Of a stretch of 64,000 nt of DNA, positions 22,649 to 62,188 are shown in pieces. Both the position numbers and the translations under genes were made by a program. How positions within the stretch are numbered: position 1 is the stretch's first letter; the number at the start of each line of letters is the position of its first letter. Under the pieces are notes generated by a model that did no database searches, was not told the origin of the DNA, and was given only the letters and a program-made list of their open reading frames with translations. Origin of the DNA: an uncultured bacterium (GTDB lineage Bacteria > Cyanobacteriota > Vampirovibrionia > Gastranaerophilales > Gastranaerophilaceae); contig CACYTP010000007.1 of assembly GCA_902777385.1 (NCBI GenBank), positions 62,001 to 126,000 on the forward strand, read 5' to 3'.

Positions 22649-24718
22649 CTATTTTTTAGATTTTCCGGTGAAAAAGTTTTTAATTTTTTCAAAAAACGAC
22701 CACGATTTGGATTTTTTCTCTTTGCCGTATAATTTTTCCATTAATTTCTTTTGCTTTTTAGCTTCTTTTTTTGCTTCTCTGGCTTTTATTTTAGCTTCTT
22801 TTGCGTTTTGCTTTTCTATTCTTTTTTCTTCTTTTATTTCTTGTTTTGTTTTCGTTTCATAAATTTCGGCATTAACAGATTTTTGTACAAGAGGTTCTAA
22901 TTTTGTTTGAGGCTCTTGCTTTGTTTGTTTAGGTCTTCTCAAGCTTACAAGAGTATCTGAATCAAGTGTCATACTTAAATCAATATGAAATCTGCCTGAT
23001 TTACTCTGTTCTTCGTGATTGTTTTTCATTAGCGGGAATCCCCACGCCATTCTCAAATTTAATCCGCCCGGCAGACTTATTTTCGTACCAAAACCGATAC
23101 TTAACAAGAAGTCGTTTGAATTATAATTTTCACTTCCTGAGCCTGAGCCTTTATACGGGAAAATGCCGGCATGATCTGCAAACACAAACCCTTTAACGTA
23201 ATTTCCTATAAATGGTATTGCTTTTTCAGGATGTTTTTTTGTATGAATTTCTCTTGGTCCAAGTGGAAACATAAGTTCTGTGCTTACTATATATCCGTTA
23301 CGACCTATTAAAAGACCCTCTGAATAACCTCTGACTGTTGCGGCACCACCGGCAAGCATTTGGTCAATGTATGGAACATCCTTTTTAGGAATTACTTGAT
23401 AATTACCCCTGATTGTTCCGACAAATCCGTGTCCTAAATCGTGAAGTCTTAAAACTCCGCCATCCAATTTTAAATAGTTAGAACTTTTATCAAATATTGG
23501 AAATGAATATCCGATATTTTGATTTAAATACCAAATACCTCTTTTGGTATCATATCTGTATGTCAACCCTGTTGTTGCAGTCGTAACTCTATTTCTAAAT
23601 ATGTCCTGTCCGTCAAAACTGGTTGCAGAATGTTTATATGCGATTGAAGTTGTGCTTGATAATTCTGTCCAAGGTTTGCGTATAATAGGCTGAGTATAGT
23701 ACAATGAATAATTTTGCGAACGGCTCTTGATATTAAAGAGTCTGTACGGACCATTTCCTATTTTAGAGTTGCTTGCAGAAAAACTAAATCCTATCCTTCC
23801 GTCTTTCTTGTTAACAGGATAGTTATAATCCGCAAAAGGAGTTATTGAATACCTGCTGAAATAAGTTCCGATTGTCAGAGGATCACGATGTTTTGTAAGA
23901 CTATCATCTCTTAACATTAATCCGCCGCGTAATTCTCCGACTGATTTCCTTCCGGAATTATCCATTAATGCAGTCAAATGAAACGGGAATTTTTCATGAG
24001 CTTGAATCTCGATATCAGTTGTTCCCATTTGGGATTTACCTGCATTTAACGAGCCGGTTAACTGTATCCCGTTATTGTATCTGTTAAACAGAACCATTGA
24101 ACGTTCCAAATCTTGAACGTTAAAAATTTCACCTTTGTTTAGATTCAGTCTTTCCTCAATAAATTTTGGTTTTGTCCATTTACTGTCTAAAACAATAACA
24201 TCCCCGACTTTACCTTCAACGAGTTTTATTTTTACTACTCCGTCATCAATAGTTTGCTCGGGAACAAATGCCCTTGCAGTAACAAATCCGTAACTTAAAT
24301 AAAGTTTGTTTATACGTTGAACAATTTCCTTTAATTGTTCCATTGTTAAATTTTTATTGGTATAATCCCTTAATATGTTTTCAATTTCTTCTTTTGTTAA
24401 AATTTGGGATGGAGAAACTTCAAATTTTTCAATATAAACTCCTTGGGTAGCATAATCTTCCAGTTTTGCTCTGATTACTTCTGGAGATTTTTTTTCGATT
24501 TCATCTTTTGCTGCTTCACCGCTTTCTTTGCGTTGTTCAAATTTTTTATAATCTTCCTGTACCTGTTTTTCAATCTGATATTGTCTTATTGTATCTAAGT
24601 TATGGGTATTAACAGTACCAGCTTGAGGTACGATATTCGGAGCAAAATCAGGTGCGGCAAATGTGGAAATTTGCATTGCAGAACAACATATTAAGCATAT
24701 TAAAAACTTATTTTTCAT
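22649..24718 (-). CDS. TpsB outer-membrane translocator (ShlB/FhaC/HecB family) with C-terminal extension
   Basis: The 689-residue product has a signal peptide (FLICLICCSAMQISTFAA), a charged linker, two POTRA domains (about 98-170 and 172-245) and a 16-strand barrel. VRGY (462-465), the loop-6 signature of Omp85/TpsB proteins, is present. It exports its partner across the outer membrane; the partner is the divergent giant gene. The barrel appears to end near residue 583 (FHIDLSMT). The remaining ~106 residues (22649-22969) are Lys/Glu-rich, helix-forming and basic (ending WSFFEKIKNFFTGKSKK). TpsB proteins normally end with the last strand, so this tail is unusual and should lie in the periplasm. 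GAGGAAG precedes the ATG. Confidence 0.93.
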   Translation of the reverse strand: MKNKFLICLICCSAMQISTFAAPDFAPNIVPQAGTVNTHNLDTIRQYQIEKQVQEDYKKFEQRKESGEAAKDEIEKKSPEVIRAKLEDYATQGVYIEKFEVSPSQILTKEEIENILRDYTNKNLTMEQLKEIVQRINKLYLSYGFVTARAFVPEQTIDDGVVKIKLVEGKVGDVIVLDSKWTKPKFIEERLNLNKGEIFNVQDLERSMVLFNRYNNGIQLTGSLNAGKSQMGTTDIEIQAHEKFPFHLTALMDNSGRKSVGELRGGLMLRDDSLTKHRDPLTIGTYFSRYSITPFADYNYPVNKKDGRIGFSFSASNSKIGNGPYRLFNIKSRSQNYSLYYTQPIIRKPWTELSSTTSIAYKHSATSFDGQDIFRNRVTTATTGLTYRYDTKRGIWYLNQNIGYSFPIFDKSSNYLKLDGGVLRLHDLGHGFVGTIRGNYQVIPKKDVPYIDQMLAGGAATVRGYSEGLLIGRNGYIVSTELMFPLGPREIHTKKHPEKAIPFIGNYVKGFVFADHAGIFPYKGSGSGSENYNSNDFLLSIGFGTKISLPGGLNLRMAWGFPLMKNNHEEQSKSGRFHIDLSMTLDSDTLVSLRRPKQTKQEPQTKLEPLVQKSVNAEIYETKTKQEIKEEKRIEKQNAKEAKIKAREAKKEAKKQKKLMEKLYGKEKKSKSWSFFEKIKNFFTGKSKK

Positions 24719-24930
24719 CTTCCTCTAATAAACACAAATATATCATAAAATATTATAAAAAAAACAATATTTGTATTGTAAAGAAATATTAAAAATGGGG
24801 TACGGCTGTAATACTTTATATAAAAGGACTCTAGAAATTTTACAAATCTTAAATTTTAAAAACGGGTTGCGAAAATTTTGCCTTGTTTTATCATATATAT
24901 ATGGTCTGTAACTCTGGAAGTAGTGTGTAT
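24719..24930. promoter_or_regulatory. Divergent intergenic region tpsB/tpsA
   Basis: 212 AT-rich bases hold both upstream regions. For tpsA, TTGCGA (24867-24872) and a TATATAT tract (24893-24900) are seen but their spacing is too long to be sure. For tpsB only scattered TATAAT-like boxes are present. GGAAG lies ten bases before the tpsA ATG. Confidence 0.35.
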
Positions 24931-27900
24931 ATGAGATATAAAAAAAAGAAAAAATTTGGAAGGACAAGAAGTATTGCATCCTTATTGTGTGCAAATGCAA
25001 TGTTATTCGGTATTCCGGCATTATCATCTGCGTCAGAAATTACAGGTATTACCCCGAACGGAAATACATATAATATAGAAGCTTCAAAAGTTTCAGGCAG
25101 TACAGGTTTTAGAGAGTATCAGAAATTCAACCTCTCGGAAGGCGATATAGCAAACCTTGTTTATAAGGATAATTATTCAAAATTTGTTAACCTTGTTGAT
25201 AAACAGGTAGTTATTGACGGTATCGTTAATACAATGAAAGATAACAATTTTTATAACGGACACGCTATTTTTGTTTCTCCAAACGGTATAGTTGTCGGTG
25301 CTTCCGGTATCCTCAATGTCGGGTCATTAACTTTAATGGCTCCTTCTCAAAATGCGTATGATTTATTTAAAAAGAATTATGCAAATAATTTAAAAAATTA
25401 TGAATTTGATTTATCAAAAAACAATTATAAAAGTCTCATAACAAATTCTTCCGGCGATATTATATTGAACGGTAAAATATTGGCTCGAGAAGGAGTTAAT
25501 GCATACGGCAGAAGAATTTTAACAAATGTTGATCCTAAAGATGTTACAAAATCGGCAAATGCTTCACCAAAAATTGTTGCAGGTATTCAAAATAAAAACG
25601 AGATAATTACCAAAGCAGATCAGGCAGAAACTTTATTTAATTCTATTGTGTCAAATGATACAACCAATGCTGAGTCTTACGACTTAAAAGACGGTAAGAT
25701 TGTACTTATTACGCATAAAGCAAATGAAGAAATTTTAACATCCGATATAGATAATAAAGTTACGGTTCATCACGTTGATTCGGGATTGAAAGTTGTAAAA
25801 GAAACGAAAGCAAAAGACGGTTCTTCCAATACAGGTTCTGCTGATGGCAAAACTAAAACGGAAACCACAACAACAAAGACAATTGACACGGATACATATA
25901 AAGAATCATCATTATCATCAAACGATTCAGTAATTAAAATTAATGATGCAACTATTGTTGCTAATGATGTAGAAATTACAGCAGAAAGCGAATCTTCGAA
26001 GGAAATAACAGAAGATACAATAAAAGATTACAATGAAGCATTGAAAGCTTCTAAAAAAGATAATTCAACCAATACTAATAATAAAGAACAAAATGCTGAC
26101 AATAAAAATCCTGATACGGGCAAGAGTAGCCTTTTAGCGGCTACAAATGCGAATGCAGATACAGGCAGTGGCCAAAATGCCGAAGCTAATAAAGATGGCG
26201 GTAATAAAACAACAGGAGAGCAAACCACAGGTGGTAAAACCTCTGCGGACAAAACTACTGAGGATAAAACTACAGGCAACGTAATACATAAGAGTTTTAA
26301 AGATGTTGCACCGAGTGCAAGTGCAAAGATTACAATAAATAATTCAAAAATATACGGGGATAAAATCTCTATCAAATCTGAAGCAAGCAGCAGCACCGAA
26401 ACTTATATTCAACTGTTGGATACTATTTATGAAAAATGGATTACAATGGTAGGTACTGACGTTTTGTCAGAAATCTTGTTAAAGATAAATGAAAAGAATT
26501 TGCCAAAAGATCATGAGGGTTATGACTGGCAGTCTTGGTCAGCGGTAAAAAGTTTCTTCAGTGATGATCCTTACCAATTCTTTGACGGTGCAAAAGCTTC
26601 TTCAAATATAAATATTACTGATTCTGTTCTTTCTGCGGCTGATTCAATTGATATAACATCTGATGCAAGTTCTAAATTAAAAATAAAAACCGGAACATTG
26701 GATTCAAGCCCTGCGTTCATGTATGGTTTAGGTTCGTCAACAGAGTCAAAAGTAAATATTAAAAATTCCACACTGAAAACATCGGCGGAAGATGGTGAAA
26801 TAAACATAAATGCCCTGTCTACACTTTCTGAAAATTTAAAGTACGACGGAACAAAATTTTTATCTTTGTTTGAACAAAAAAATAGTGATACAAACAATTC
26901 GAACCCTGACAACAATTCGAACCCTGACGGCAATTCAAATCCTGACAACAATTCAAATCCTGACAACAATTCGAACCCTGACAACAATTCAAACCCTGAC
27001 AACAATTCAAATCCTGACAACAATTCAAACCCTGATAACAATTCAAACCCTGATAATGCAGATACTAACAAAACAAATGCAGATAATAAAGATTCAGGCG
27101 GCGGAAAAACCAAACTATTAGCGGCAGCTAATGCAAATGCTGATGCTGATACGAATAAAGATTCAAAATCTGACGATGGTAAAGATTCAAAAGATGGAAG
27201 CGGTGATGGTTCAGCTACCAATAAAGATAATACCGGTGATAGTACCACAAATCCGGATACAACTTCTCAAGGCAGCAATAAACAGGATTCAGCTAATAAA
27301 GACAATAAAGACGGCGAAGGTTCACAAAAGAATAAAGTATCAGCATACAATCTTGTACTTTTGAACAACACTATTACATCCGATACTGATGTTACTATTG
27401 ATAATTCTACTGTTGAGACAACCAATTTGAATGTAAGAGCGATTAGCTACAATGAAACGGATGTATCACTAAAGAATGTTTCAAATGTCGGTAAAAATTC
27501 CGATCATACAGGGGTATCCGCAGGTATGCTCATTAACCACTTCAGAGCGAATACAAATATTGATGTAAAAAATAATTCTAAAATAACTCTAAAAGAAAAA
27601 GATGCCGTAACAGAAACAAAAACCAAAGATGACGGTACGGAAGAAAAAATTACAACAACATACGGAAACGCAAGATTTATAGCTCAAAATGTCAACAGTA
27701 TAAATAATTCCATAGAGAGCGAAGTAAAAGCAAAAGAGCAGACAAATACGAAAACAAAAGTTGATTTTACCGACAAAGAAAAGGGTATAATATCAAAATC
27801 ATACAACTTCTTGAATGACAAATTATTCTCAAAAGTCGGAGATAAAGTAAGTAATGTAGCAGATAAATTGAATACTCAATTTTCAGGTTCAGGAATTTGG

Positions 27901-30900
27901 AATGATGAAGTTAACACATCTGTTACAACAATAGATAATTCTACAATTAATGCAACTACAGTTAATGCGTCATCAAATCTTGTAGAATTAACCATAAATC
28001 AAGCAAAAGCAAATGCCGGTGCAAATAACAAATTTGGAGCAGGTGCTGCCGTAATTGTGGATGATCAACATAATACAAGTAACGCAAAAATTACAAACAA
28101 CGCACAGATTACGGCAAAAGACGATATAACGGTCAATGCGACAACTCAACTTCCTATGAATCCTATGGAATTAAAAATAGGGCAGGAAGTCGGCGAAGGT
28201 GATAAAAAGAATGACCTGTACTTAGGGGTTGGTTTTGATCAGGGCGACGGTATTGATAAATGGGATGCAGAATTTCTCCACACCAATCTTCTGAAGTTAT
28301 TAGATCCTGACACCTTAAAATCTATAGGTTCAGCTCTCAAGAAGCCAAAAGAATTCGCAGGCAATAACGAATTAAGTATGGATGGCTTGTTTAACAACTT
28401 TGCAAAAGCCGAAGGCTCTGCAGAAACCGCTGCAATTGCAGGTTCTGTCGTAGTTAATACGCTAAAGAACGATACAACGGCAGAAGTTCTTAACGGTGCG
28501 ACACTTAAAGTAACCGGAGATGAAGGCAGTGTAAATATTAATGCGGCAAACTCTGTTATAAATTATAACGCTGTAGGTAAAGCAGATTTCTTAATTGAAG
28601 AAATTAATAAATATATTGCCAAGTTAAAACCGGACGATGAAGATGCTGAAGAAGCTTCTAAATTCGGTTTGGGCGGTTCTGTATTAGTAAGTAGTTTAAA
28701 TAGCAACGCAACCGCTAGGATTGATAATGCAAAGGTAAATGTTGAGTCAGGTGAAATAAATGTAAACTCCGCACAAGAAGAGGGCTACATAAATGCTCTT
28801 GTAACAGGCGGTTCTGCGGGTACTTTTGTTATTGAAGGAAGTGTTAATGTCCAAAATATTGGCGGTAAAACTTCTGCATATATAGTAAACAGTAATGATA
28901 CTAAAGCAGATTCCGTCAATGTAAATGCTGGGAAAGCATCAATAGAGATGAAAGAATCCGGCGAAGATGATCCGTTTGAGTTTGATGATGATACACATGA
29001 ATTAAACGTAAAAGACTCAAGAGACGTTGATGGTAAAACTTTGGTAATAAATATCTTGGGTGTAAATGCAACTCAAAAAGGTTCTTCAACAAACAGCAAT
29101 CAAAATGCTTCTTCAGGTGCTTCCGTTGGGGCATCTGTTAATGTTGCATCCATGAAAAAAGAAACCGAAGCGTATATTGATAATTCTACAATAACAGCAG
29201 ACGAAGTTAAAGTAGATGCAGACACAACATCAAGAAAAATTGATGTATTGTTGGCAGCTGCCAGTGCCGGCGGTGTTGATATGAAAGAAGCTAAGGATGA
29301 GGGTAAAAAGAGCAACGAAGAAAAAGCTAAATCAGGTGAAGGTGATTCTTCTGCTAACAAACCTGCTGACGGTAGCGGCGATTCTTCTGCTAACAAACCT
29401 GCTGACGGTAGCGGCGATTCTTCTGCCAACAAACCTGCTGACGGTAGTGCGAATGCTTCTGCAAATAACAAAAAGTCAAAAAATATCGGTAATTGGATGG
29501 ATATGCTTGATGAAGCAGGCGATGATGAAGAAGATGTCATGAATTTGAACGAATTGTTCAAAGAAAATGATGCGTCTGAACAAGCTCAAACATCTGTTAA
29601 AAAAGAATCAACTACGAATGCAATAAAAACTGCGGATAAAACTGCCGATAAAGACGGAAAACTGCAAGATGCAAAAAATCAAAATGCAAAAAAAGACGAT
29701 AAGGCTAATACTGAAACACTTACAGATAATAAGAACAAAAAACTCGAAGGTGATTCAAGCCAAAAAGCAGATACTACAACTGCATCAAACAACTTCTCAT
29801 TGGCTGCCGCAGGTTCTATTGATATAACAAAAGACGAAACAAAAATAACTTCCAAAATTACTAATTCTACAATAAATGCAGGCAAAAAAGCGGAAGTAAG
29901 TTCAAATAATGATACTTTAGTTGTTGATGTTAACGGAGGATTTGCAAAAGCCGGTAATGTTGCAGTCGGTGCAGGTGTAAATGTTTATCGTAATTTATCT
30001 AAAACAAAATCTCTTGTTGAAAATTCAACAATTAATTTTACGGATAAAGATGCTGAGGGGCTTGATGTAAAATCAAACTTCGATGCGGATTTAATTGATG
30101 TAACAGTAGGTATCGGGGCTGCAAAGGATAGTAATAACAGTGCAAAAATTGCTGTGGGCGGTTCATTTGCGTGGAATACTTTAAAAAATGAAGTATCGTC
30201 AAAAATCAATAATTCAACTATTCAAAAAGAAGAAAATGCAGGTAATCCTGACGTTAATGTTAGTGCAACCGATGATTCACTTATCTGGAATATAACCGGT
30301 GGTGTTGCTTATGCAGGAAGCAGTAAAGATAAAAACGCAACGGAAAATGAACAGAAGAATGCAACGGGTGTTGGTGCAGGGATAGCAGCAACAGTTGATT
30401 ACAGCTCAAAGAATATTAATGCTGAAATTACAGATAGTACTTTAACCGATGTGAAAGATGTTAAAGTTAATGCTGATTTAAAACAAAATTTACATACGGT
30501 AGCAGTAGCGGCTGCCGTTGCAACTACCAAGTCAGCTTACACCTTTGATGGTGCCGTTAATACGGAAATAAATACAAATACTGTCAATGCAAGAGTTGGT
30601 CAAGGTTATACTTATGATGATAAAGGCAACGTCGTAAAAGATAAAGATGGTAATATTGTTAAAACAGGAGTTGGAACAACAATAAAATCAACAGGAGATG
30701 TTGAAGTAAGTGCGGTTGAAACAATCCAAAATCTGAGTATAGCAGGCGGTGTAAACTTCTCCAGTGCAGATTCCGGTGTGGGTGTTGGTATCGGAGCAAT
30801 TGTAAACGTTAATAACTCTGACGTGACAGCTGAAGCTGATAAATTAACTGTTGAAAAATCAGGCTCTATTAAAATTAATGCTAAAGAAGACGAAGATTTA

Positions 30901-33900
30901 TCATTCTTGGCAGTTAATTTCGGGTTGCAAACAGGCGGCGGAACTGCAATAAACGTAAACGGAATTGCAAACGTATTTTTATCCGATGTCGTATCTCAGG
31001 CAGTTAATAATTCCGTACTAAATTCGTCAGGTAATGTTGCAATTCAATCTTTATACTTTAATAACCTTTGGGGTATTACGGCGGCAGTAGCTGTATCCAA
31101 AGATAAAGCAGCCGCATCTGCAAATCTGATAGCTGATGTTTATAATAATCACATAAATTCATTACTTGAAAAAGGATCAAAAATTAATACAGATGGTGGT
31201 GTTACAATAAAATCAATTGCGGTTGAAGAACTGACTATATTCCCTGTCGGTGTTTCAATTTCAGGAAATAGTGCGGCTGTAGCGGCAAATATTAATGCAA
31301 ATGTTATTGTAGACACGATTAAAGCTCAAGTATTTGGTGAAATAAATAAGAGCGGCAGTGTTCTTGTTAAAGCACAAGACACTACAAACATTTTGACAAG
31401 AGGCGGTACGCTTGCTTTAACATTCGGAGATGCTGCTATCGGCGGTGATGTTAATGTTGATGTAATTAATAAAAATGTAACTGCTGAAATTAAAGATACA
31501 ACTGTTAATTCAACAGGTTCGGTTGAAGTTCTTGCAAAAAGTATAAACGCTATGGGCGGAACGGTAAATATTGATAAAAATATAAAAGATAAAGATTTGC
31601 AAAGAGAAAATTATACCTTTAGCGTTGGAACTCTTGACGATGCAAAACACTTTGCGGACAAAACCGGCGAAGAAGATGCAAAAGATGATAAAGGAAATAT
31701 AATTTACGAAAACGGAAAGCCTAAAAAGCTTGCTAAATACGAAAATGAAGATAAATTTGGCAATTGGAACATGTTTTACGATTTGGGCGTAAGCTCAAAA
31801 GCAGCCGTTTCAGGTGTAATAGTTGTTAAAGTCATAGATGATACGGTTAAGGCTTATGTAACAGATTCTAATATCAACGCAAATTCGTTAAATGTGAATG
31901 CCATTTCAGGCACGGTTGCAAATGCTATTATGGGCAGAATTAATGTTGGAGGTTCGGCTGCTGTAGGTGCTAATATATTTGTAATGTCAGGAACATCTGC
32001 TGTAGAAGCACAAATTACCGACGATTATAACTTGAACGGCAAAAATAGCATAAATATTGCTAAAGATACGACTGTCCAAGCAAATGCAGAAAAGAAATCA
32101 ACTCTGATTACTGTCGGTGGCGGTGCTGCAGGTACAGCTTCCGTAAATGGTGCTGCTGTTGCTAATGTTATAAAAGATACAGTAACTTCTAAGATTGGTG
32201 ATGGTGTAAATGTAAATACAGGTACATTAAATGTTATTGCTGATAGTGACAACGATTTAAAAGGCGTGGTTGTTAATGTTGGAGCTGCAGGAACTGCAGC
32301 AGTGGGTGCGGTAGTTTATGTAAATAAGCAGAATACAACCAACACTGCTCAAATAGGTGAATTGGGTAAAGAATCTGCAATAATAAAAGCTATTGATAAT
32401 ATTAACGTAAAAGCTAATGCTGATGATGAATTTTCAGCACTGCTTATAAATGTTTCCGCTTCAGGTACGGCTGCAGTTGCAGGTACGGCATTAGTTAATG
32501 TTATAGATTCGCATGTCAATTCAGGTATATATAATTCAAATATTGTAAGTGAACAAGGTAAAGTTAATGTTATAGCTGACAGAGGCTATAACAGAGCTGA
32601 AATACTAAATGAAAACAAAGTGAGAAGCTGGTTCAAAGGTACTAATGCTTATAATCAAAAACAACAAAAGGATGGCGATAATACAGCAAAAGATATAAGT
32701 CAAAAAGATATAGATAATCTTAAGCCTAGAGTTGGTATGGTTAGTGCATCCGCATCAGGTACGGCTGCGGTAACAGCATCAGTAATCGTTAATGATATAG
32801 AAGGTAACATAACTTCAGAAGTTAAGGAATCTGAAATATCAACTAAAGACGGCTTAAATGTAGATGCAAATCAAACCTTTGTAAATTATGACGCAATAGC
32901 TGCGATGTCAGTTGCAGGTAATGCGGCGGTAAATGCAGTCGGTGTAATAAATGTTCTGGAAGACAATGTAACTGCTCAACTTGATAAAGCAACTGTTAAA
33001 CAAGGTAAAGCTAAAGTTGATGCCACTTCACAAATGAAAATTAATCAGCTTGTAGTATCAGGTCAAGTGGCACTAACAGGTGCATCTGTAGGGGTAGCGG
33101 TTGATGTAAACAAACTTAATGACACCGTACATTCTTATGTTACAAACGGTTCGGAAATCCATGGCGAAACAACAGTTAATGCAGAGCATGCCGTTGAAAT
33201 AAATAATGTATTATTGGGTGCAACTATTGCTGGAACAGGTGCTGCCGTTAATATTGTTCCTGTTATAAACAGTTATACCGGCGAAACAATTGCTGAAATT
33301 AACGGAAATTCTATAGTAAATGACGGTGAAATTAAAATAAGTGCTTTTGATAATATAGATAACTTCTCAGCTATTGCAGGTCTAGGCGGAGCAGGAGTCG
33401 GAGCTACTGTTTCAGGATATTTAATTAAAAACAGCTACGAAAATACCGTCAATGCAGGTATTAGCGGATTAAATATAAATACAAATAATAATATAAATAT
33501 ATCATCAGCTTCTGTTTTAGACAGTGAAAATGCACTTTTAGCCGCAGGTATTGCTGGTGTTGGTGCAAGCGTAACCGCAAATATTATTGTTAATGACATA
33601 GAATCTCATATAAATTCATATATTGATAACAGTGTTGTAAATAATGCGGGAAATATTACCTTAACCGCAAATAAAAAGGAAGACGGCACGCTTTATCAGG
33701 ATAAGATATATAATTTGACGGGTAGTGTCGGTGTAACTGGTATCGGTGGAAATGCTTCAACAAATATGATATTCAATTTATATAACAATACTACTCAAAG
33801 TTATGTACAAAATACTAATCTTGAACATGCACTAAAATTAGCTGTTGAAGCTCATGGCGATAAAATGTTCACCGCAAAGAACTATGGCATAGGTGCCGCC

Positions 33901-36900
33901 GGAATGGGCGGTACGGTTATTGCCGATGCTGTTGTTGATCAAATTGAATCTACCACACATGCATTTGTAAAAGCAAATAACAACAAAAACATTAACGTAG
34001 ATGGTGCAATTAATGTTATTGCTGATGATAAACTCGTATCAACTTCGGATATGGGCTTTGCAGCTGCGGCAGGTGCAGGTGGAGCTGTCGGTGCTAATAT
34101 AAATATCAGTAATTATAACGAAGCTGTTATTGCGGAACTTTTATCCGAAGGTGACAGTAAGATTACCGCCGGAAGTGTAAAATTAACTTCAAATGCCACT
34201 TATGCCCTTAAAAATACTATTTCAGGTGCTGCGGTCGGTTTCGGTGCTATGGCAGGTGATGTTTCGATTGTTCGATTAGGTAAAAGAGAAGCCTTAGACG
34301 GAAATGACGGGAAAAATACCGGTATAAATGAATCATTAGATACTGTAAAAAAAGGTTACGATAAAGCTGCTAACCATGAAGTGCAGAATAAAGATAACGA
34401 TGCCAAGAATCTTAATGATGATTCTTTAAAAGCAACAGATGAAGAAAGAGCAAAAGCAGAAAAAGAAAAAGCTAAATTTAATCCGACAAGTTCATCATCT
34501 GACGGCACAGGTTCTATTGCAAGGATAAACGGTAATGTAGAAACTAAAGGCGATATAATCTTAAATGCAGAAACAGACGTAAAAGGTATAAAAGAAATAG
34601 ATAAAGACGGCAAAGTTACATTATCGGATACTTTAACCTTTGAAAATCTTAAAATCCTTGGAGGCGGAGTTGCAGCAGGTGTAGGTGTTAAATTAATTGA
34701 CTTTTCAAATCAGACAAATGCTGAAATCGCAGGGGGAACAGTTACAACACAAGGCAATATAAATATCAATTCAGAGTCAAAAAATGACGTAAAAATAACA
34801 AATAAAAGCTATAAGGTATCATTAGCATCAATTGAAGGTGCAGTTGCGATTTATGATAATAAATCTTATACAAATTCCAAAATTGAAAACGCTGATATTG
34901 AGGCAAAAAATATTAATCTTAAAGCCAAATCATCTAATAAAGCAGACTTAGATAGTGAATCAGTAACAGTATCAGGGCTTAGTATTGCTGCTTCAGTGTC
35001 CAAAGCAAAAGATGACAGCACGACAAATGCGATTGTTACGGGAAATACGAATATTACAACAAAAGCTGTTGAAGGTGATGATGATTCAGGCAAATTGAAT
35101 CTCCATGCAACCGGTAATTCTGATATGAAAACGAACCTTCAATCAAATACTCTTGCACCTATTGATATTGCTTATATGAACGGTGAAGCAAGAGCAAACT
35201 CTAAAACTAATGCCGTTATAAAAGATGCAAATGGTAATATTAATGTTGCAGGATTAAATTTCGTATCTGATTCAAACGGATTAAGTTCAACTGCAACATC
35301 AAATGCTACATCAATATCCGGTATAAAAGTTAATGTAACCGGAACAGGCTCCAATATGACAGCAACTATGCAAGCAGGTATTGATAGTGTAGGAAAAGGA
35401 CTTGTAATAAATAACAGCGGAAAGACCTCAATTGTATCAGGTGTAGATGCCGGTGATAACTCTAAAGGAGCAGATGTATCAGCTAATGCGTATATTGAAA
35501 GCAGAGGTTTCAGTCTTGTAGGTGGCGGCGGAGTAGAGGCTAAAGCCGTAAATGATGTTACGGTAAATTCTGTAATGAAGTCAAATGAACATAATGCAGA
35601 TTCCCTTGAAATGATTGCTAAAGTAAATGAAACTGCAAAAGCGGATGTTTCAAATACATCATTAGGATTAGTTAATATCAGTGTTACAAAACTTACTACT
35701 GATGCAGAAGGTAATGTAGGAGTAACTGTTGATGGTAAAAATACAATTAAAAATAATGCAAAAATCGACGTTAACAGCAAGGTAACAAGTGATACAAGTG
35801 TTGCTTCTGCCGCATACGGTTTTGCAACGGGTTCCGGTACACATTTAACATCTAATCTGGAATCAAATACAATTCTGAATGTTAGTGGGAAATTAAACGC
35901 TAAAGAGCTTGAAATTGATTCAAATACAGAAAGAATATCAAAAGTTGACTATTCTTCTTCAAGCGGCGGTGCTGTTTCTATAAACGGAGCAACGGTTAAG
36001 AATGATGTGTCCGGCAAATCAGAAGTTAATTTAGTAAATTATACACCGTCAGCTGATTATGGCAATAAAATAACAATAAAGAATGCATCTACTAATACGC
36101 AAGATACTGTTTCAAGCAGTGTTTCCGGCGGTGCGGTATCAGTTGATTTTGCTAATGTTTCAGGCACGTTGAATTCCACAACGGTAACGAATATTAAAGA
36201 TTCTGATATTAAGACTAAGAATGATATAAATGTTCAAGTTGATAACACAAATATTGTACAAGACTCTGCTTCCATGTCAAACGGAGGAATTGTTGCAATA
36301 GCATCAAATAATGTATCACATACCTATAATTCCGGAGCCAAAATATCAGTTGATAATTCAAAAATTTCAGCAAAAGATATAACGGCAAAAGCTTTCTCAA
36401 ATATTAAAAATGCTTTAGGCGACAAATGGGTTGAATATAGAGGTGCTTCGAAAGGATTTATAGCAAAAAACAGCACTGATTTAAAAAATACTTTGAAACA
36501 AACAAGTGAAATCGAACTCAAAAATAACACTGAAATTAACTCAGATAATGACGTTCAATTAGTCGTTAATACAGATTCTAACTTTAAGCAAAAAATAGAT
36601 TCGTCAGGTTCCGGATTCGTTGCGATTCCAAAAGCAACAACCACTTTGAATACGGAAAATACAAATAAGATATCTATAGATAAAAATTCATCTGTATCAG
36701 CGAAAAAATCTGCCATATTTGATTTTGATTCAAACAATACATTACATACAAGAACTTATGCAAATGCATCTCATTTTGCAGGTGAACCTGTAGCAAAATC
36801 ATATTTAGCATTAACAATCAATAATACCCTTAACAACGAGGGTACTGTTAACGCCGGCAGCCTTGTAGATATAAATTTCATGAACAGTTCAAATAACGAT

Positions 36901-39900
36901 TTGAGTCAATATGCTCGTACGGAAGTTGATGCGGCAATTGCGACTTCTACTCAAGACGGAGCATTATCCAGAGCTTACAATAATCTGTTATCTGTAGCAG
37001 CTAATGCTCAAATAGCTTCAAAGAAAGATATTGATATTGCATATAATGTCGGCGAGGAAAAAATCAGTTCGGAAATTTCGTATAGATCTACAAGCTATGG
37101 CTTGTTAGGTATTCCTATTACCGTTAGAGGCAATCGCCAATCAATTGCCAAGAATTTCAGCAACAAATTAGTTCTTGATGGAGAAATGTCCGCAGGTGAC
37201 GGAAATAATAAATATATGAAAATAACTTCTGACGGTATGATTGATTTATCAACGTTGAAAGGATTTGATTCTGACGGATATAAAATTTCGGAAGATGTTG
37301 ACGACCAAGGTGAAGACTTAAAGAGCCATACCATAAGAATTCTGGAAGCCAGAATTGAGGAAATTAATAATCAGATAAAAACACTCAATAAGGATATTGG
37401 TAAACAAACCAAAATTATTGAGACAATTGAAGAAGCAATTACTAATATTAAAGATATGAACGCTGAGTTATCTCAGTATACCCATAAATCTTTGGATGAA
37501 TTTGAAAAAATAGGTAATGATGAATATAAAGCTTTGGTAAAACAGGCATTAATTGATAATAACGCAGGCTCTGTCGATTATGAAACAATTACTAAGGAAT
37601 ATATTGATTATGTAAAAGATATAAGAGCAAAAATTGAACAAGAAAATGAAAAATTCTATACTGATGGCATTGAGCCTACAATTACTGAAGCCAATATTAA
37701 GCCAATGGATCAATTTATCAAAAGCAAGGATACTGATACATATAAAAACTTAACTGAAACACAAATAAAAATATTAACGGATAATCTTGAAATAATAGGA
37801 AATAAATTATCTGAAACACCAAAGGGTAAATATAATGTGTATGACGGAAAGTACATTCTTGTACCTACAATAACACTCCCTGATGAGACAGTACCATCAG
37901 GTTCAAAAACTATGACCGAAGTGGACGTTCTGGCTTGGGCAGATTCGTTATTAAAGGATGAATTGAATAAATTAAAGAAAGAAAGACAAGTTAATGAACA
38001 TGAAAAGGATCTATTAAAAAAGAATTCCGATACTCAAACAAATAATTTGGAATTGATAAAAATAGCAAAAGCAACAGATATTGATGTACCTTATTATATT
38101 GAATTAGCAGATATGTCTGCGGAAGCTTCAGGAATTTATATAAGCGGAGATATTGATGATACGAAGGATATCACAGGAAGCGGTGAATTTAACGTAGACA
38201 GTCCGGCTCTCACTATAGACAACTATTCTACAAGAAGTATTATCCTAAACTCAGTAATGTTTGGTGATGGTAAACATAATGGTTTAATAATTAACGGAAA
38301 AGGTTATTCTGATTACTTGAATGTTAAAGATAAGGTAATCGGTACAAATAAAGGAGTTCACTACGTTAGCGATGGAATTGGCGGAAATGGTGATATAAAA
38401 ATAACGAATTATTATGATGTACTAAATCCGTTTGCAAAGACACTTAACATTCCAAATAATGTTCAGAAATCTGATATCACAATGCAAAGACCGATATTAA
38501 CCAGCGGAAAGCTTGACATATACAACGAAAGCGGTGATATAACAGCATTATCCAGTGTAAGTTCAGGAAGTAAACATCTGGTAGCTACTAATGGTGATAT
38601 TTATATCATGGCTGACGGGGAATTCTTTATGGATGATAAAGATGTTTTGTTTGCCGGAAATCTGATTCGTTTGACGGCAAATGATGCTGATATCAAGGGT
38701 AATATTACTGCCGGCTACAAAGAAAGAAAGCTTGAAATAACAAAAGATATGTTAGAAAATCTTGTCCTTGATCCGACTACAGGTGAAACTAACATGATTA
38801 ATCTTGGTGCTACGCCATATTTGGGTGACAGCAAAGGAAATAATATTAAAGCAATATATAAAGACGGTCAAATATACTTATTTGGAATAAAAGACTCTAT
38901 AGGTGCGGTAACATTGGATTTACAAAAAGGTAAGGTCGCTGCGAATGTTTCAACAAAAGAAGGTGCCAGTGCTATTGATATAGTTAACCATACCGATAAA
39001 GTAATAAATGTTTCAAGTATCGTAAATGTTTCGAGTTTTGGTCAATTATATAAAGAAGGTGGTGCAGATTATACAAAAGTCAACCATAAGAATTGGGATG
39101 CAGGAATTAATGGTAATACTGTGAATATTGACTCAGACGGAGGTATTAATTTTAATTCTACAGTTACTAATTTTGGAGATATAAATATTACAAATAAAAA
39201 CGGTAATATAACATTATATAAAGATATATTGGCATATACCGGTGATATAAATGTTTCTCAAACAAATGGTAATATTATAAATGGTATTTTTGATAATACA
39301 ATATCAAACCATTCCAGTGTAAATTTCGCTGATCGTGCCGAATTATTTGTTAAAGGTATATATATCCCTAATTTCACAACTTCTCAAGATTTGACTATAA
39401 ACGTTGTAGATGGGGATATTGGCGTAAATTCAAATCCAAATGCTAAAGTTGGAATTGATGCTTCAACAAGAGACTTTACCGATTCTATTAATGTAAATAT
39501 AGGCGGTAATGTTACTGCAACAGCTAAAAATAATACAAGTTCCGACAAACGAGTAATCAATTTGAGAGCAAAAGATTCAGATTTGAATATTAAGGATATA
39601 GATTCTGACGGAGATGTAATGTTGACCGCAGCTGACTGGGATATTGAAGACATGCGTCCAACTCCTGACGATGATACATATTTCCAAGGACATTCTATAT
39701 TGAATGCTTCCGGAAATAATTCTCCAATAAAAGGTCAAAATATATCCATGATTGCCAGTGATACAATTGGTACTCCGGATGAGAGAATTGTTATCAATCA
39801 GGACACTATAACCAATAACGGTGGAAAAATTGCAATAGAATCAGAAAATGATGTATATGTTGATATTAAATCAAATTCAAATAATCCGACATATATTGAT

Positions 39901-41319
39901 GCCTTAATATCAAAACGTGGAGATATTTATTTTACAAACTCTACAAATTCTTCAATTAATCAAATTACTTCCGGCGGAGATTTACATATACTTGAAACCG
40001 GAAAAGATTTAACAATATACAATATTGGTGGTAATGCATTAGGCTTTGAGGATATTTTATATCCTCACGACGATATAGGTACTGCAGGTGAAAATGCAGC
40101 TGTACCTCAATCTATTGAAATAGAAGTTCTTGATGCTAACGGTGGTGATAATGCCGAGTCTACATTAAAGATATATTCTGCTTATGTGAAAGGCAGAAAT
40201 AAAGGTGAAGGCGAATTTGATGAAAACGGCAGACAAATTGCAGATGTTAGTTTAATGGCAGATAATATTTATGTAAATTCGGCAAACGCTAAATCGTCTT
40301 CGGTAGAAACGTTAAAAAATACAAACGGATATCGTTCAACTGATAATACATACACAGATGCACAACTTGGACTTAATGGTGATACTGTTTATGAAGCCCA
40401 GGGGCTTAACTCATACGGGACAGGCAAACCTATTGTGTTGGATATAAAAGGTGTAAGTAAGGAGTTTGTAGAAGAAAATACAACAACAGCTACAAGAACT
40501 AATTATAATGTTCAAACACCTGTTGAACAAGAACAAAAATTTGCTAATCCTGATAATCTGATAACAGATCATGATTATAGAGTAAAAAATGCTGTTGTAT
40601 CAGTAAACAACAACAATCCACAGGACAGAGGAGTTGTTTTGAATACGATATATGCTGATGATGCGTACATTGATACAAAAAATTCTGACCTGTCGGTAAA
40701 AGACGGTTATATTAAGGATTATGCAGAATTCTCCAATGCAAATAAAAAAATGACAGTAGATAATGATTTCAGACGCAGACTAAGAGATGCTGATACACAA
40801 TTGTATACGGAAAAAACAGGCTCTTTTGCTCTGAGTATGGGTGATTCTATTGATATGAAAACAACTGCACCTGCAGTCGGAAATGATTTTGATATGTTGG
40901 CTAACGGCTACCAGAGTGAAGGAAACTTCGTAAACCGCAGCAGAAAAGATAGCAAAGAATTAATTGATAATATTAACAAATATAATCAGTTGGTTAAACA
41001 AAATTATAAAGAAGAAACAAAACGTACATCTGTAAGATTTGATGCTTCACAAGATACTGAATTGAGATCAAATTTCAAAATATACGATTTATCAGCTACC
41101 GGTGCGTTAATTAAAAATGATGCTAATTTGCAGGTAGGTGATATGACGAATATACGAATAGTATTTGAAGATATAGATGTTACTTTAAACTCGAAAGTTA
41201 TAAATACAAGCGGAGATAGAGCAGGAATTGAATTTATAAATGTTCCGCCTGATATTGCAAATAGAATTTTATATAGATATTTGCAGAAAAAATCAACTAT
41301 GATGTTGAGTAAACAATAA
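24931..41319 (+). CDS. TpsA giant filamentous adhesin (5462 aa) with C-terminal PilZ-like domain
   Basis: ATG 24931 gives a basic N-terminus and signal peptide (IASLLCANAMLFGIPALSSAS). A TPS/haemagglutination-activity domain follows (about 35-140; FVSPNGIVVGASGILNVGSL, with SPNG at 116-119). The body is beta-solenoid with Asn/Asp/Lys/Thr-rich linkers at about 370-455, 650-815 and 1450-1620. Two linkers contain tandem repeats. A run of ~65-75-residue repeats (GTAAVxAxxxVNxIxxxxxS, about 2390-3000) resembles Fusobacterium LktA-type adhesins. Residues 4131-4383 are a predicted helical, coiled-coil insert; more solenoid follows. The last ~105 residues look like PilZ: R5365-xxx-R5369 and D5386-x-S-xx-G5391. 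It should be secreted by the divergent TpsB, at least up to the C-terminal part. Family assignment is firm; the PilZ role is inference. Confidence 0.92.
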   Translation: MRYKKKKKFGRTRSIASLLCANAMLFGIPALSSASEITGITPNGNTYNIEASKVSGSTGFREYQKFNLSEGDIANLVYKDNYSKFVNLVDKQVVIDGIVNTMKDNNFYNGHAIFVSPNGIVVGASGILNVGSLTLMAPSQNAYDLFKKNYANNLKNYEFDLSKNNYKSLITNSSGDIILNGKILAREGVNAYGRRILTNVDPKDVTKSANASPKIVAGIQNKNEIITKADQAETLFNSIVSNDTTNAESYDLKDGKIVLITHKANEEILTSDIDNKVTVHHVDSGLKVVKETKAKDGSSNTGSADGKTKTETTTTKTIDTDTYKESSLSSNDSVIKINDATIVANDVEITAESESSKEITEDTIKDYNEALKASKKDNSTNTNNKEQNADNKNPDTGKSSLLAATNANADTGSGQNAEANKDGGNKTTGEQTTGGKTSADKTTEDKTTGNVIHKSFKDVAPSASAKITINNSKIYGDKISIKSEASSSTETYIQLLDTIYEKWITMVGTDVLSEILLKINEKNLPKDHEGYDWQSWSAVKSFFSDDPYQFFDGAKASSNINITDSVLSAADSIDITSDASSKLKIKTGTLDSSPAFMYGLGSSTESKVNIKNSTLKTSAEDGEININALSTLSENLKYDGTKFLSLFEQKNSDTNNSNPDNNSNPDGNSNPDNNSNPDNNSNPDNNSNPDNNSNPDNNSNPDNNSNPDNADTNKTNADNKDSGGGKTKLLAAANANADADTNKDSKSDDGKDSKDGSGDGSATNKDNTGDSTTNPDTTSQGSNKQDSANKDNKDGEGSQKNKVSAYNLVLLNNTITSDTDVTIDNSTVETTNLNVRAISYNETDVSLKNVSNVGKNSDHTGVSAGMLINHFRANTNIDVKNNSKITLKEKDAVTETKTKDDGTEEKITTTYGNARFIAQNVNSINNSIESEVKAKEQTNTKTKVDFTDKEKGIISKSYNFLNDKLFSKVGDKVSNVADKLNTQFSGSGIWNDEVNTSVTTIDNSTINATTVNASSNLVELTINQAKANAGANNKFGAGAAVIVDDQHNTSNAKITNNAQITAKDDITVNATTQLPMNPMELKIGQEVGEGDKKNDLYLGVGFDQGDGIDKWDAEFLHTNLLKLLDPDTLKSIGSALKKPKEFAGNNELSMDGLFNNFAKAEGSAETAAIAGSVVVNTLKNDTTAEVLNGATLKVTGDEGSVNINAANSVINYNAVGKADFLIEEINKYIAKLKPDDEDAEEASKFGLGGSVLVSSLNSNATARIDNAKVNVESGEINVNSAQEEGYINALVTGGSAGTFVIEGSVNVQNIGGKTSAYIVNSNDTKADSVNVNAGKASIEMKESGEDDPFEFDDDTHELNVKDSRDVDGKTLVINILGVNATQKGSSTNSNQNASSGASVGASVNVASMKKETEAYIDNSTITADEVKVDADTTSRKIDVLLAAASAGGVDMKEAKDEGKKSNEEKAKSGEGDSSANKPADGSGDSSANKPADGSGDSSANKPADGSANASANNKKSKNIGNWMDMLDEAGDDEEDVMNLNELFKENDASEQAQTSVKKESTTNAIKTADKTADKDGKLQDAKNQNAKKDDKANTETLTDNKNKKLEGDSSQKADTTTASNNFSLAAAGSIDITKDETKITSKITNSTINAGKKAEVSSNNDTLVVDVNGGFAKAGNVAVGAGVNVYRNLSKTKSLVENSTINFTDKDAEGLDVKSNFDADLIDVTVGIGAAKDSNNSAKIAVGGSFAWNTLKNEVSSKINNSTIQKEENAGNPDVNVSATDDSLIWNITGGVAYAGSSKDKNATENEQKNATGVGAGIAATVDYSSKNINAEITDSTLTDVKDVKVNADLKQNLHTVAVAAAVATTKSAYTFDGAVNTEINTNTVNARVGQGYTYDDKGNVVKDKDGNIVKTGVGTTIKSTGDVEVSAVETIQNLSIAGGVNFSSADSGVGVGIGAIVNVNNSDVTAEADKLTVEKSGSIKINAKEDEDLSFLAVNFGLQTGGGTAINVNGIANVFLSDVVSQAVNNSVLNSSGNVAIQSLYFNNLWGITAAVAVSKDKAAASANLIADVYNNHINSLLEKGSKINTDGGVTIKSIAVEELTIFPVGVSISGNSAAVAANINANVIVDTIKAQVFGEINKSGSVLVKAQDTTNILTRGGTLALTFGDAAIGGDVNVDVINKNVTAEIKDTTVNSTGSVEVLAKSINAMGGTVNIDKNIKDKDLQRENYTFSVGTLDDAKHFADKTGEEDAKDDKGNIIYENGKPKKLAKYENEDKFGNWNMFYDLGVSSKAAVSGVIVVKVIDDTVKAYVTDSNINANSLNVNAISGTVANAIMGRINVGGSAAVGANIFVMSGTSAVEAQITDDYNLNGKNSINIAKDTTVQANAEKKSTLITVGGGAAGTASVNGAAVANVIKDTVTSKIGDGVNVNTGTLNVIADSDNDLKGVVVNVGAAGTAAVGAVVYVNKQNTTNTAQIGELGKESAIIKAIDNINVKANADDEFSALLINVSASGTAAVAGTALVNVIDSHVNSGIYNSNIVSEQGKVNVIADRGYNRAEILNENKVRSWFKGTNAYNQKQQKDGDNTAKDISQKDIDNLKPRVGMVSASASGTAAVTASVIVNDIEGNITSEVKESEISTKDGLNVDANQTFVNYDAIAAMSVAGNAAVNAVGVINVLEDNVTAQLDKATVKQGKAKVDATSQMKINQLVVSGQVALTGASVGVAVDVNKLNDTVHSYVTNGSEIHGETTVNAEHAVEINNVLLGATIAGTGAAVNIVPVINSYTGETIAEINGNSIVNDGEIKISAFDNIDNFSAIAGLGGAGVGATVSGYLIKNSYENTVNAGISGLNINTNNNINISSASVLDSENALLAAGIAGVGASVTANIIVNDIESHINSYIDNSVVNNAGNITLTANKKEDGTLYQDKIYNLTGSVGVTGIGGNASTNMIFNLYNNTTQSYVQNTNLEHALKLAVEAHGDKMFTAKNYGIGAAGMGGTVIADAVVDQIESTTHAFVKANNNKNINVDGAINVIADDKLVSTSDMGFAAAAGAGGAVGANINISNYNEAVIAELLSEGDSKITAGSVKLTSNATYALKNTISGAAVGFGAMAGDVSIVRLGKREALDGNDGKNTGINESLDTVKKGYDKAANHEVQNKDNDAKNLNDDSLKATDEERAKAEKEKAKFNPTSSSSDGTGSIARINGNVETKGDIILNAETDVKGIKEIDKDGKVTLSDTLTFENLKILGGGVAAGVGVKLIDFSNQTNAEIAGGTVTTQGNININSESKNDVKITNKSYKVSLASIEGAVAIYDNKSYTNSKIENADIEAKNINLKAKSSNKADLDSESVTVSGLSIAASVSKAKDDSTTNAIVTGNTNITTKAVEGDDDSGKLNLHATGNSDMKTNLQSNTLAPIDIAYMNGEARANSKTNAVIKDANGNINVAGLNFVSDSNGLSSTATSNATSISGIKVNVTGTGSNMTATMQAGIDSVGKGLVINNSGKTSIVSGVDAGDNSKGADVSANAYIESRGFSLVGGGGVEAKAVNDVTVNSVMKSNEHNADSLEMIAKVNETAKADVSNTSLGLVNISVTKLTTDAEGNVGVTVDGKNTIKNNAKIDVNSKVTSDTSVASAAYGFATGSGTHLTSNLESNTILNVSGKLNAKELEIDSNTERISKVDYSSSSGGAVSINGATVKNDVSGKSEVNLVNYTPSADYGNKITIKNASTNTQDTVSSSVSGGAVSVDFANVSGTLNSTTVTNIKDSDIKTKNDINVQVDNTNIVQDSASMSNGGIVAIASNNVSHTYNSGAKISVDNSKISAKDITAKAFSNIKNALGDKWVEYRGASKGFIAKNSTDLKNTLKQTSEIELKNNTEINSDNDVQLVVNTDSNFKQKIDSSGSGFVAIPKATTTLNTENTNKISIDKNSSVSAKKSAIFDFDSNNTLHTRTYANASHFAGEPVAKSYLALTINNTLNNEGTVNAGSLVDINFMNSSNNDLSQYARTEVDAAIATSTQDGALSRAYNNLLSVAANAQIASKKDIDIAYNVGEEKISSEISYRSTSYGLLGIPITVRGNRQSIAKNFSNKLVLDGEMSAGDGNNKYMKITSDGMIDLSTLKGFDSDGYKISEDVDDQGEDLKSHTIRILEARIEEINNQIKTLNKDIGKQTKIIETIEEAITNIKDMNAELSQYTHKSLDEFEKIGNDEYKALVKQALIDNNAGSVDYETITKEYIDYVKDIRAKIEQENEKFYTDGIEPTITEANIKPMDQFIKSKDTDTYKNLTETQIKILTDNLEIIGNKLSETPKGKYNVYDGKYILVPTITLPDETVPSGSKTMTEVDVLAWADSLLKDELNKLKKERQVNEHEKDLLKKNSDTQTNNLELIKIAKATDIDVPYYIELADMSAEASGIYISGDIDDTKDITGSGEFNVDSPALTIDNYSTRSIILNSVMFGDGKHNGLIINGKGYSDYLNVKDKVIGTNKGVHYVSDGIGGNGDIKITNYYDVLNPFAKTLNIPNNVQKSDITMQRPILTSGKLDIYNESGDITALSSVSSGSKHLVATNGDIYIMADGEFFMDDKDVLFAGNLIRLTANDADIKGNITAGYKERKLEITKDMLENLVLDPTTGETNMINLGATPYLGDSKGNNIKAIYKDGQIYLFGIKDSIGAVTLDLQKGKVAANVSTKEGASAIDIVNHTDKVINVSSIVNVSSFGQLYKEGGADYTKVNHKNWDAGINGNTVNIDSDGGINFNSTVTNFGDINITNKNGNITLYKDILAYTGDINVSQTNGNIINGIFDNTISNHSSVNFADRAELFVKGIYIPNFTTSQDLTINVVDGDIGVNSNPNAKVGIDASTRDFTDSINVNIGGNVTATAKNNTSSDKRVINLRAKDSDLNIKDIDSDGDVMLTAADWDIEDMRPTPDDDTYFQGHSILNASGNNSPIKGQNISMIASDTIGTPDERIVINQDTITNNGGKIAIESENDVYVDIKSNSNNPTYIDALISKRGDIYFTNSTNSSINQITSGGDLHILETGKDLTIYNIGGNALGFEDILYPHDDIGTAGENAAVPQSIEIEVLDANGGDNAESTLKIYSAYVKGRNKGEGEFDENGRQIADVSLMADNIYVNSANAKSSSVETLKNTNGYRSTDNTYTDAQLGLNGDTVYEAQGLNSYGTGKPIVLDIKGVSKEFVEENTTTATRTNYNVQTPVEQEQKFANPDNLITDHDYRVKNAVVSVNNNNPQDRGVVLNTIYADDAYIDTKNSDLSVKDGYIKDYAEFSNANKKMTVDNDFRRRLRDADTQLYTEKTGSFALSMGDSIDMKTTAPAVGNDFDMLANGYQSEGNFVNRSRKDSKELIDNINKYNQLVKQNYKEETKRTSVRFDASQDTELRSNFKIYDLSATGALIKNDANLQVGDMTNIRIVFEDIDVTLNSKVINTSGDRAGIEFINVPPDIANRILYRYLQKKSTMMLSKQ
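26893..27054 (+). repeat. Nine 18-bp tandem repeats in tpsA (NNSNPD)
   Basis: Nine in-frame units of AACAATTCAAACCCTGAC and close variants, encoding NNSNPD (one unit GNSNPD), residues 655-708. The synonymous differences between units are few, so expansion is recent. Copy-number change would lengthen the linker without shifting the frame. Confidence 0.95.
29341..29448 (+). repeat. Three 36-bp tandem repeats in tpsA (GDSSANKPADGS)
   Basis: Three nearly identical 36-base units encode GDSSANKPADGS at residues 1471-1506; a decayed fourth (NASANN) follows. The linker separates solenoid blocks. Confidence 0.95.
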
Positions 41320-61336: not shown

Positions 61337-62188
61337 ATGAAGAAAAAGATTATAGCGTTAATTTTAATACTTATAATAGCCGGTTTAGGTATATTTTTCT
61401 ATAAAATAAGCAAAAAAGATACCTCAAATGACCTCACCTTATATGGCAATATCGAAATTCGCCAAGTGGATTTGAGTTTCCTTGCAGGCGGTCAAATTTC
61501 AAAACTTTTAAAAGAAGAGGGAGATACCGTTAAAAAAGGAGAACTTATTGCAACATTGGATTCAAGAGATTATGAAGCCAACTACAATAAGGCAATAGCA
61601 GATGTTGAAAGAAAGCTTGCTCTAAAAAATGACGCATTGGAAAAATATAATAGAAATGAGCCGTTAGGCAAAGCAGGTGCGGTATCCGAACAAGATGTCG
61701 AAACTTTATTCAACAATAAAAACAGAACTCAAGCTGAATATAAACTTGCCCAGGCAAATAAAACTTACGCCAAAAACCAACTTGATTATACAAAACTCTA
61801 CGCACCTGAAGACGGTATAATTATGGTTCGTGTAATTGAACCAGGAAGTAATGTTCAAAAAGGGCAACCTGTTTATACAATGGCAAAAACTAATCCTGTT
61901 TGGGTTAGAGCTTATGTTAATGAAAAAGATTTGGGCAACATTAAATACGGACAAGAGGTAAATGTGTACACAGATACAGTAAATCCTCAAACAGGAAAGA
62001 ATCGAGAATACAAAGGTCAAATCGGTTATATTTCACCTGTTGCGGAGTTTACTCCAAAGACCGTTCAATCAACCGATACGAGAACTGACTTAGTTTATCG
62101 TATTAGAGTGTATATCAATGATATTGATGAATATTTAAGGCAGGGTATGCCTGTTACTATAAAGGTTAGTTTAACAGAGGAGAAATAG
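61337..62188 (+). CDS. ybhG: HlyD/YbhG-type membrane fusion protein
   Basis: The 283-residue product has an N-terminal anchor (IIALILILIIAGLGIFFY), a biotinyl-lipoyl-like part (GGQISKLLKEEGDTVKKGELIATLD), a coiled-coil hairpin at about 85-150 and the return strand LYAPEDGIIMVRVIEPGSNVQKGQPVYTM. A beta-barrel ends the protein. It joins the ABC exporter to the outer envelope. It is nine bases from the regulator gene, whose AAGGGG end serves as ribosome binding site. A GTTGAA/TTCAAC-rich hairpin fills the gap to the next gene. Confidence 0.9.
   Translation: MKKKIIALILILIIAGLGIFFYKISKKDTSNDLTLYGNIEIRQVDLSFLAGGQISKLLKEEGDTVKKGELIATLDSRDYEANYNKAIADVERKLALKNDALEKYNRNEPLGKAGAVSEQDVETLFNNKNRTQAEYKLAQANKTYAKNQLDYTKLYAPEDGIIMVRVIEPGSNVQKGQPVYTMAKTNPVWVRAYVNEKDLGNIKYGQEVNVYTDTVNPQTGKNREYKGQIGYISPVAEFTPKTVQSTDTRTDLVYRIRVYINDIDEYLRQGMPVTIKVSLTEEK

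Follow-up and report, generated by a model that had tools for sequence, protein, structure and literature searches.

A PilZ domain at the C-terminus of a secreted two-partner adhesin of Gastranaerophilales, probably placed outside the inner membrane

PilZ domains are the textbook intracellular receptors of cyclic di-guanosine monophosphate (c-di-GMP), a nucleotide that is normally cytoplasmic. In the stretch of DNA analysed here (the window: 64,000 nucleotides, positions 62,001 to 126,000 of contig CACYTP010000007.1, assembly GCA_902777385.1, from an uncultured bacterium of the Gastranaerophilaceae) a PilZ domain forms the tail of a giant TpsA adhesin of a two-partner secretion (TPS) system, and the locus raises the question of where such a domain works and what it does there. 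The PilZ subfamily to which the tail belongs is strongly indicated by its sequences to be exported through the inner membrane, and the tail very probably acts outside that membrane, where c-di-GMP is not normally expected. Its purpose is most likely to set retention against release of the adhesin. That the adhesin belongs to a lineage-specific Gastranaerophilales family of TpsA proteins ending in an extracytoplasmic PilZ domain, and that this domain is an anchor switched by a nucleotide, is as a joint claim one to which we give an even chance.

By fold and by motif the adhesin tail is a PilZ domain. In a direct scan the last 90 or so residues matched the Pfam PilZ family (PF07238; E=8.7e-9, 36.1 bits, curated cut-off 22.5), a match that the first genome-wide PF07238 screen had missed. 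A profile of the family found no match at E<=0.01 among the sequences of solved structures, so a fold search was needed. An AlphaFold2 (AF2) model built from the window and related-locus sequences (mean predicted local distance difference test score, pLDDT, 81) was compared with the PDB by Foldseek and matched Lpg0364 (4q63) at 1e-4, with further matches at about 1e-3 to Alg44 with c-di-GMP, 4xrn, MapZ and BcsA. A second family member (AF2, pLDDT 78) again retrieved PilZ structures, four of them at 1e-3 or better; the PilZ matches of the two models have a Foldseek probability of 1.00, and in both models the predicted fold is a PilZ beta-barrel followed by a C-terminal helix. The preliminary description of this DNA, made from the letters alone, had proposed a PilZ domain with both c-di-GMP motifs intact at this position; the Pfam match, the RxxxR and DxSxxG motifs and the resemblance of the model to c-di-GMP-bound PilZ structures bear it out.

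The protein that carries this tail is a secreted TpsA adhesin, judged by its signal peptide, its FxxPxG TPS domain and a divergent TpsB gene (Table 1), as had also been proposed. Its open reading frame (ORF) is intact to the stop codon at 41319 and, read from the ATG at 24931, encodes 5462 residues; translation could instead begin at another in-frame ATG, at 24901. The TPS domain scores 150.7 bits against NF012204 (cut-off 60), and its match to Pfam PF05860 is weak (9.6e-5) and under the cut-off. The TpsB product matches POTRA_2 (3e-19), ShlB (3.4e-19) and Omp85 (1.2e-9). The passenger between the two ends is presumed to be a beta-helix by analogy with the TpsA family.

Four lines of evidence point to a site of the tail outside the inner membrane. 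First, all nine separate small PilZ proteins of the same subfamily have a signal peptide (peak 12-residue hydropathy 2.6-3.4), whereas none of 27 control YcgR-like PilZ proteins from the same bacteria does (peak at most 1.67), signal peptides being called by hydropathy and by eye, with no trained predictor. Second, cysteine makes up 6 of 8778 residues (0.07%) in the exported tails and 71 of 3240 (2.2%) in the last 120 residues of cytoplasmic PilZ proteins, an approximately 30-fold depletion (Fisher p about 1e-33, from related sequences that are not independent). Third, hydropathy revealed no membrane-spanning or stop-transfer segment in the last 500 residues of 59 long members, which means that no stop-transfer helix keeps the tail in place. 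Fourth, the exported PilZ of a sister family is encoded on its own, without an adhesin, and its gene is divergently oriented to a TpsB gene (PF03865, 5.6e-18), as if the pairing of PilZ with TpsB had outlived the fusion or preceded it. In addition, four of the nine separate signal-peptide PilZ genes directly follow a TpsA-PilZ gene, and their products are perhaps partners of the adhesin tail. An internal start yielding a separate cytoplasmic PilZ protein finds no support, there being no conserved methionine just before the domain.

These four lines disfavour the mechanism of the preliminary description, in which the PilZ tail remains cytoplasmic and controls Sec export from there. Such a brake would have the tail, which is made last, bind cytoplasmic c-di-GMP, fold, and halt or release export, so that the adhesin is either tethered across both membranes or shed. 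In favour of the brake, both motifs are intact, and the nucleotide is made in these bacteria and normally found in the cytoplasm. A folded domain stalled in SecYEG would, however, be expected to jam export, and the tie between exported PilZ and TpsB holds even where there is no adhesin; we consider the brake improbable. The lack of a stop-transfer segment would also fit a protein that is surface-exposed in its entirety, with the PilZ tail as a receptor of c-di-GMP, or of some other anionic ligand, outside the cell, for example from gut neighbours. Effects of extracellular c-di-GMP reported for Campylobacter likewise speak for such a receptor. Known TpsA C-terminal domains of such kind stay periplasmic, however, and the linkage to TpsB and the separate signal-peptide PilZ proteins without a surface passenger fit the periplasm better, which leaves the surface receptor unlikely.

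The ligand motifs themselves are under selection and kept to a degree far beyond chance. In a non-redundant set of 81 tails (pairwise identity under 90%), 80 have R...R followed by [DN].S..G; R5365, R5369, S5388 and G5391 rank with the best conserved positions of the alignment, the S and G are invariant, and D or N occupies its motif position in 81/81. Four divergent giants (L141-L144) have lost RxxxR and, for the most part, the second motif, and still match the family PilZ profile, so the PilZ fold does not require the motifs. Persistence of the domain without the motif suggests in turn that the intact motifs are kept for ligand binding in the other tails. The alternative is that the exported PilZ serves simply for anchoring or interaction, its barrel contacting TpsB, peptidoglycan or a second PilZ, and that it takes no nucleotide and keeps its motifs for some other reason. 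The extracytoplasmic site, which makes c-di-GMP an unexpected ligand, is in favour of such a barrel, as are the four motif-less giants and the precedent of PilZ proteins that bind c-di-GMP only trivially (XC1028, 3dsg). In known PilZ structures, however, the RxxxR arginines lie in a flexible N-terminal segment outside the barrel core; 80 of the 81 tails retain them all the same, although the fold does not need them, as the divergent tails indicate. We regard a ligand-free barrel as doubtful, though a serious minority possibility.

The same fusion had been proposed as something to be sought in other genomes, and it recurs in more than 100 relatives, almost all of one Gastranaerophilales family. 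Within the window's own family (191 genomes, 41 genera), a profile of three tails matched 126 genomes and 30 genera at a loose threshold (E<=0.01). A broader profile, run at E<=1e-8 on 289 genomes of the class, matched 126 of them; two of these belong to a sister family within the order and all others to the family of the window; outside the order the phylum sample gave no family match at E<=1e-11. Relatives that carry the tail and have a name are Candidatus Gastranaerophilales, and one locus and one genome of the set (L059 and G156) are the same contig. TpsA-PilZ proteins range from about 1000 to 6400 residues and have the PilZ domain always at the extreme C-terminus, a position shared by some 60 long ORFs across many genera. 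In 13 giants of about 4700 to 6400 residues, among them that of the window, the 5' flank was open to inspection, and it begins with a divergent TpsB gene; the giant of G141 (L185) is an exception, with both TpsB genes on other contigs. The genome of the window holds two further, shorter paralogues (L005, 2877-6662, minus strand; L006, 7971-11432, plus strand), each with a signal peptide, TPS domain, passenger, Asp-Ala-rich linker and PilZ domain.

Giant repetitive genes assemble badly, and some homologues stop at contig edges inside repeats, which might suggest that the tail is joined to the adhesin by mis-assembly or a frameshift, or that it resembles PilZ by chance. The frame is uninterrupted, however, the domain holds the same position across the long ORFs, and two paralogues in the same genome repeat the arrangement. 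Mis-assembly, frameshift, chimera and chance motif were accordingly rejected as candidates, and we attach almost no probability to a tail that is not truly part of the adhesin.

Several records of the family deserve mention in their own right. At L100 (20-16822, four genes), L053, L101 and L102, two to four TpsA-PilZ genes are arranged in tandem. Two records titled Fusobacterium sp. and Muribaculaceae (L056, L066) carry genes of the TpsA-PilZ family, and L056 matches a genome of the Gastranaerophilales family (G121, 3233 residues); both records are probably misnamed or misbinned. L137 (G019) and L138 (G016) have one in-frame stop each (TAG and TAA, respectively) inside the matched frame, and may be broken copies or assembly errors.

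In the shorter proteins the PilZ domain is accompanied by a second element. A low-complexity linker directly precedes it in 34 of 44 shorter PilZ-tailed proteins, and 11 complete PilZ-less TpsA proteins from the same genomes all end in passenger, with such a linker in none (0/11). Giants aside, linker and PilZ thus behave, as far as sequence goes, as one C-terminal module. The linkers of relatives differ widely in composition (DA, DT, DS, PT, PTE), and the Asp-Ala dipeptide linkers of L005 and L006 score against staphylococcal Sdr/Clf repeat models. A fourth FxxPxG TpsA protein in the genome of the window (contig C7, L186 3081-6968; 1296 residues) has no PilZ domain and ends in passenger. The otherwise cysteine-poor passengers of L005, L006, L057, L072, L080, L090 and others contain a conserved CxxxxC pair (GPC..GVCTG), probably a disulfide loop, which is absent in the giants.

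As to the ligand, every one of the 191 genomes of the family encodes diguanylate cyclases, with 6-7 GGDEF domains per genome; with all genomes positive, co-occurrence with the tail is uninformative. Three of the seven GGDEF proteins of the window's genome could be parsed in a crude motif search, and none of the three had a membrane segment. A periplasmic c-di-GMP pool is reported for Stenotrophomonas maltophilia (PMC11404848), and this precedent together with the universal diguanylate cyclases makes c-di-GMP a plausible ligand of the tail; another ligand is possible. The more specific proposal, that c-di-GMP in the periplasm, or a molecule closely related to it, binds to the tail and directly decides anchoring or release, while the separate exported PilZ proteins act as partners or compete, we hold only tentatively and think rather less probable than its opposite.

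We take the exported PilZ tail for a C-terminal anchor that lies in the periplasm, behind the pore of TpsB, because known TpsA C-termini stay periplasmic and control release, and we consider it evenly poised whether it is such an anchor, with nucleotide binding setting retention or release. The adhesin would cross TpsB N-terminus first while the PilZ barrel folds in the periplasm; the barrel would be too bulky for the pore, and the adhesin would therefore be anchored on the surface, with PilZ taking the place that the prodomain has in FhaB and the anchor in HMW1. RxxxR and [DN]xSxxG would bind a nucleotide, c-di-GMP if a periplasmic pool exists and otherwise a related phosphate ligand. The bound ligand might then alter how stable the tail is, how exposed to protease, or how it binds TpsB or one of the separate exported PilZ proteins, and this change would decide whether the adhesin is held or let go.

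Several observations weigh against this anchor and switch. Most of the short PilZ-tailed members have no adjacent TpsB, the giants have no low-complexity linker, and L141-L144 have dispensed with the motifs. The export evidence leans on signal peptides called without a trained predictor, and the tails are kin, so that neither motif conservation nor cysteine counts are independent observations. The periplasmic precedent for c-di-GMP is a single study of S. maltophilia, an organism other than these bacteria.

Table 1. Features of the adhesin locus in the window, and separate PilZ genes at related loci
Feature	Position	Strand	Basis
tpsB: TpsB outer-membrane transporter, 689 residues, signal peptide, ShlB/Omp85 barrel	22649-24718	-	divergent from tpsA
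tpsB/tpsA divergent intergenic region	24719-24930		sequence
Adhesin signal peptide, MRYKKKKKFGRTRSIASLLCANAMLFGIPALSSA, cleaved before SE	24931-25032	+	sequence, hydropathy; cleavage site by eye
TPS secretion domain (adhes_FxxPxG, leukotoxin LktA family filamentous adhesin)	25069-25518	+	NF012204 E=2.7e-44
Long repetitive region, presumed beta-helix passenger	25519-40938	+	uninterrupted ORF
Predicted alpha-helix directly before the PilZ domain	40939-41016	+	AF2, helix 2-27 of 127-residue model
C-terminal PilZ domain	41017-41283	+	PF07238 E=8.7e-9; AF2 and Foldseek; family profile 4.9e-49 (window tail is itself one of the three rows of the profile)
RxxxR ligand motif, RTSVR (R5365, R5369)	41023-41037	+	each R kept in 80/81 non-redundant tails
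[DN]xSxxG ligand motif, DLSATG (D5386, S5388, G5391)	41086-41103	+	conservation in 81 non-redundant tails
Separate signal-peptide PilZ directly downstream of TpsA-PilZ	L062 6207-6659; L066 10334-10804; L067 4816-5319; L106 970-1611		

The preliminary description had known of no two-partner system with a PilZ tail, and this agrees with the open-access literature, in which we found no description of an exported, periplasmic or secreted PilZ domain, nor of a fusion of TpsA (two-partner secretion, hemagglutinin) with PilZ. An exported PilZ with its motifs kept implies either extracytoplasmic signalling by c-di-GMP or a look-alike, or an undescribed second PilZ ligand; extracytoplasmic sensing of c-di-GMP, if shown, would be categorically new. 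As the domain has about 100 residues and is soluble, its binding and location are directly testable.

Each part of the proposed arrangement has a relative among known systems. The LktA family filamentous adhesins (NF012204) share the N-terminal FxxPxG secretion domain, but that model covers the N-terminal domain alone, and PilZ is absent from its description. The PilZ domains of Alg44, MapZ, YcgR and BcsA have the same fold, RxxxR and [DN]xSxxG; those domains are cytoplasmic, whereas the adhesin-tail subfamily is probably exported and forms a separate sequence group. In BtsD of S. maltophilia c-di-GMP binding is reported outside the cytoplasm (PMC11404848), but by the N-terminal region of a diguanylate cyclase with neither a PilZ tail nor an adhesin.

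The closest parallels for an anchor are other TpsA proteins. In Bordetella FhaB the C-terminal prodomain is held in the periplasm and its last 98 residues regulate proteolysis and release (PMC8263021); this tail matches the PilZ tail in place and size, but it is not described as PilZ, and the adhesin itself is without nucleotide control. In HMW1 and HxuA the TpsA protein is locked in the TpsB pore by a small element at its C-terminus that remains periplasmic (PMC5422565). This element takes the place proposed here for PilZ, with a disulfide loop as the anchor rather than a ligand-binding barrel. An anchored TpsA is thus known; what would be new is an anchor made of an exported PilZ domain.

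The closest parallels for a switch are large adhesins in which c-di-GMP determines whether the protein is retained or released, as may be the case here. The tail of Pseudomonas aeruginosa CdrA, another TpsA protein with a periplasmic C-terminus, is cut by LapG under c-di-GMP control (PMC5422565), and the LapA-LapG-LapD system of P. fluorescens controls adhesin retention through the same nucleotide (PMC3032545). LapA-type adhesins have an N-terminal LapG-cleaved retention module and type I secretion, whereas the adhesin of the window begins with a signal peptide and TPS domain and is paired with TpsB. In the CdrA and LapA systems LapD reads c-di-GMP in the cytoplasm and relays the signal to a periplasmic protease; here a receptor-like domain is carried on the adhesin, probably outside the inner membrane. 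If this reading is true, a receptor on the adhesin itself would replace the LapD-LapG relay in a common but poorly studied gut lineage.

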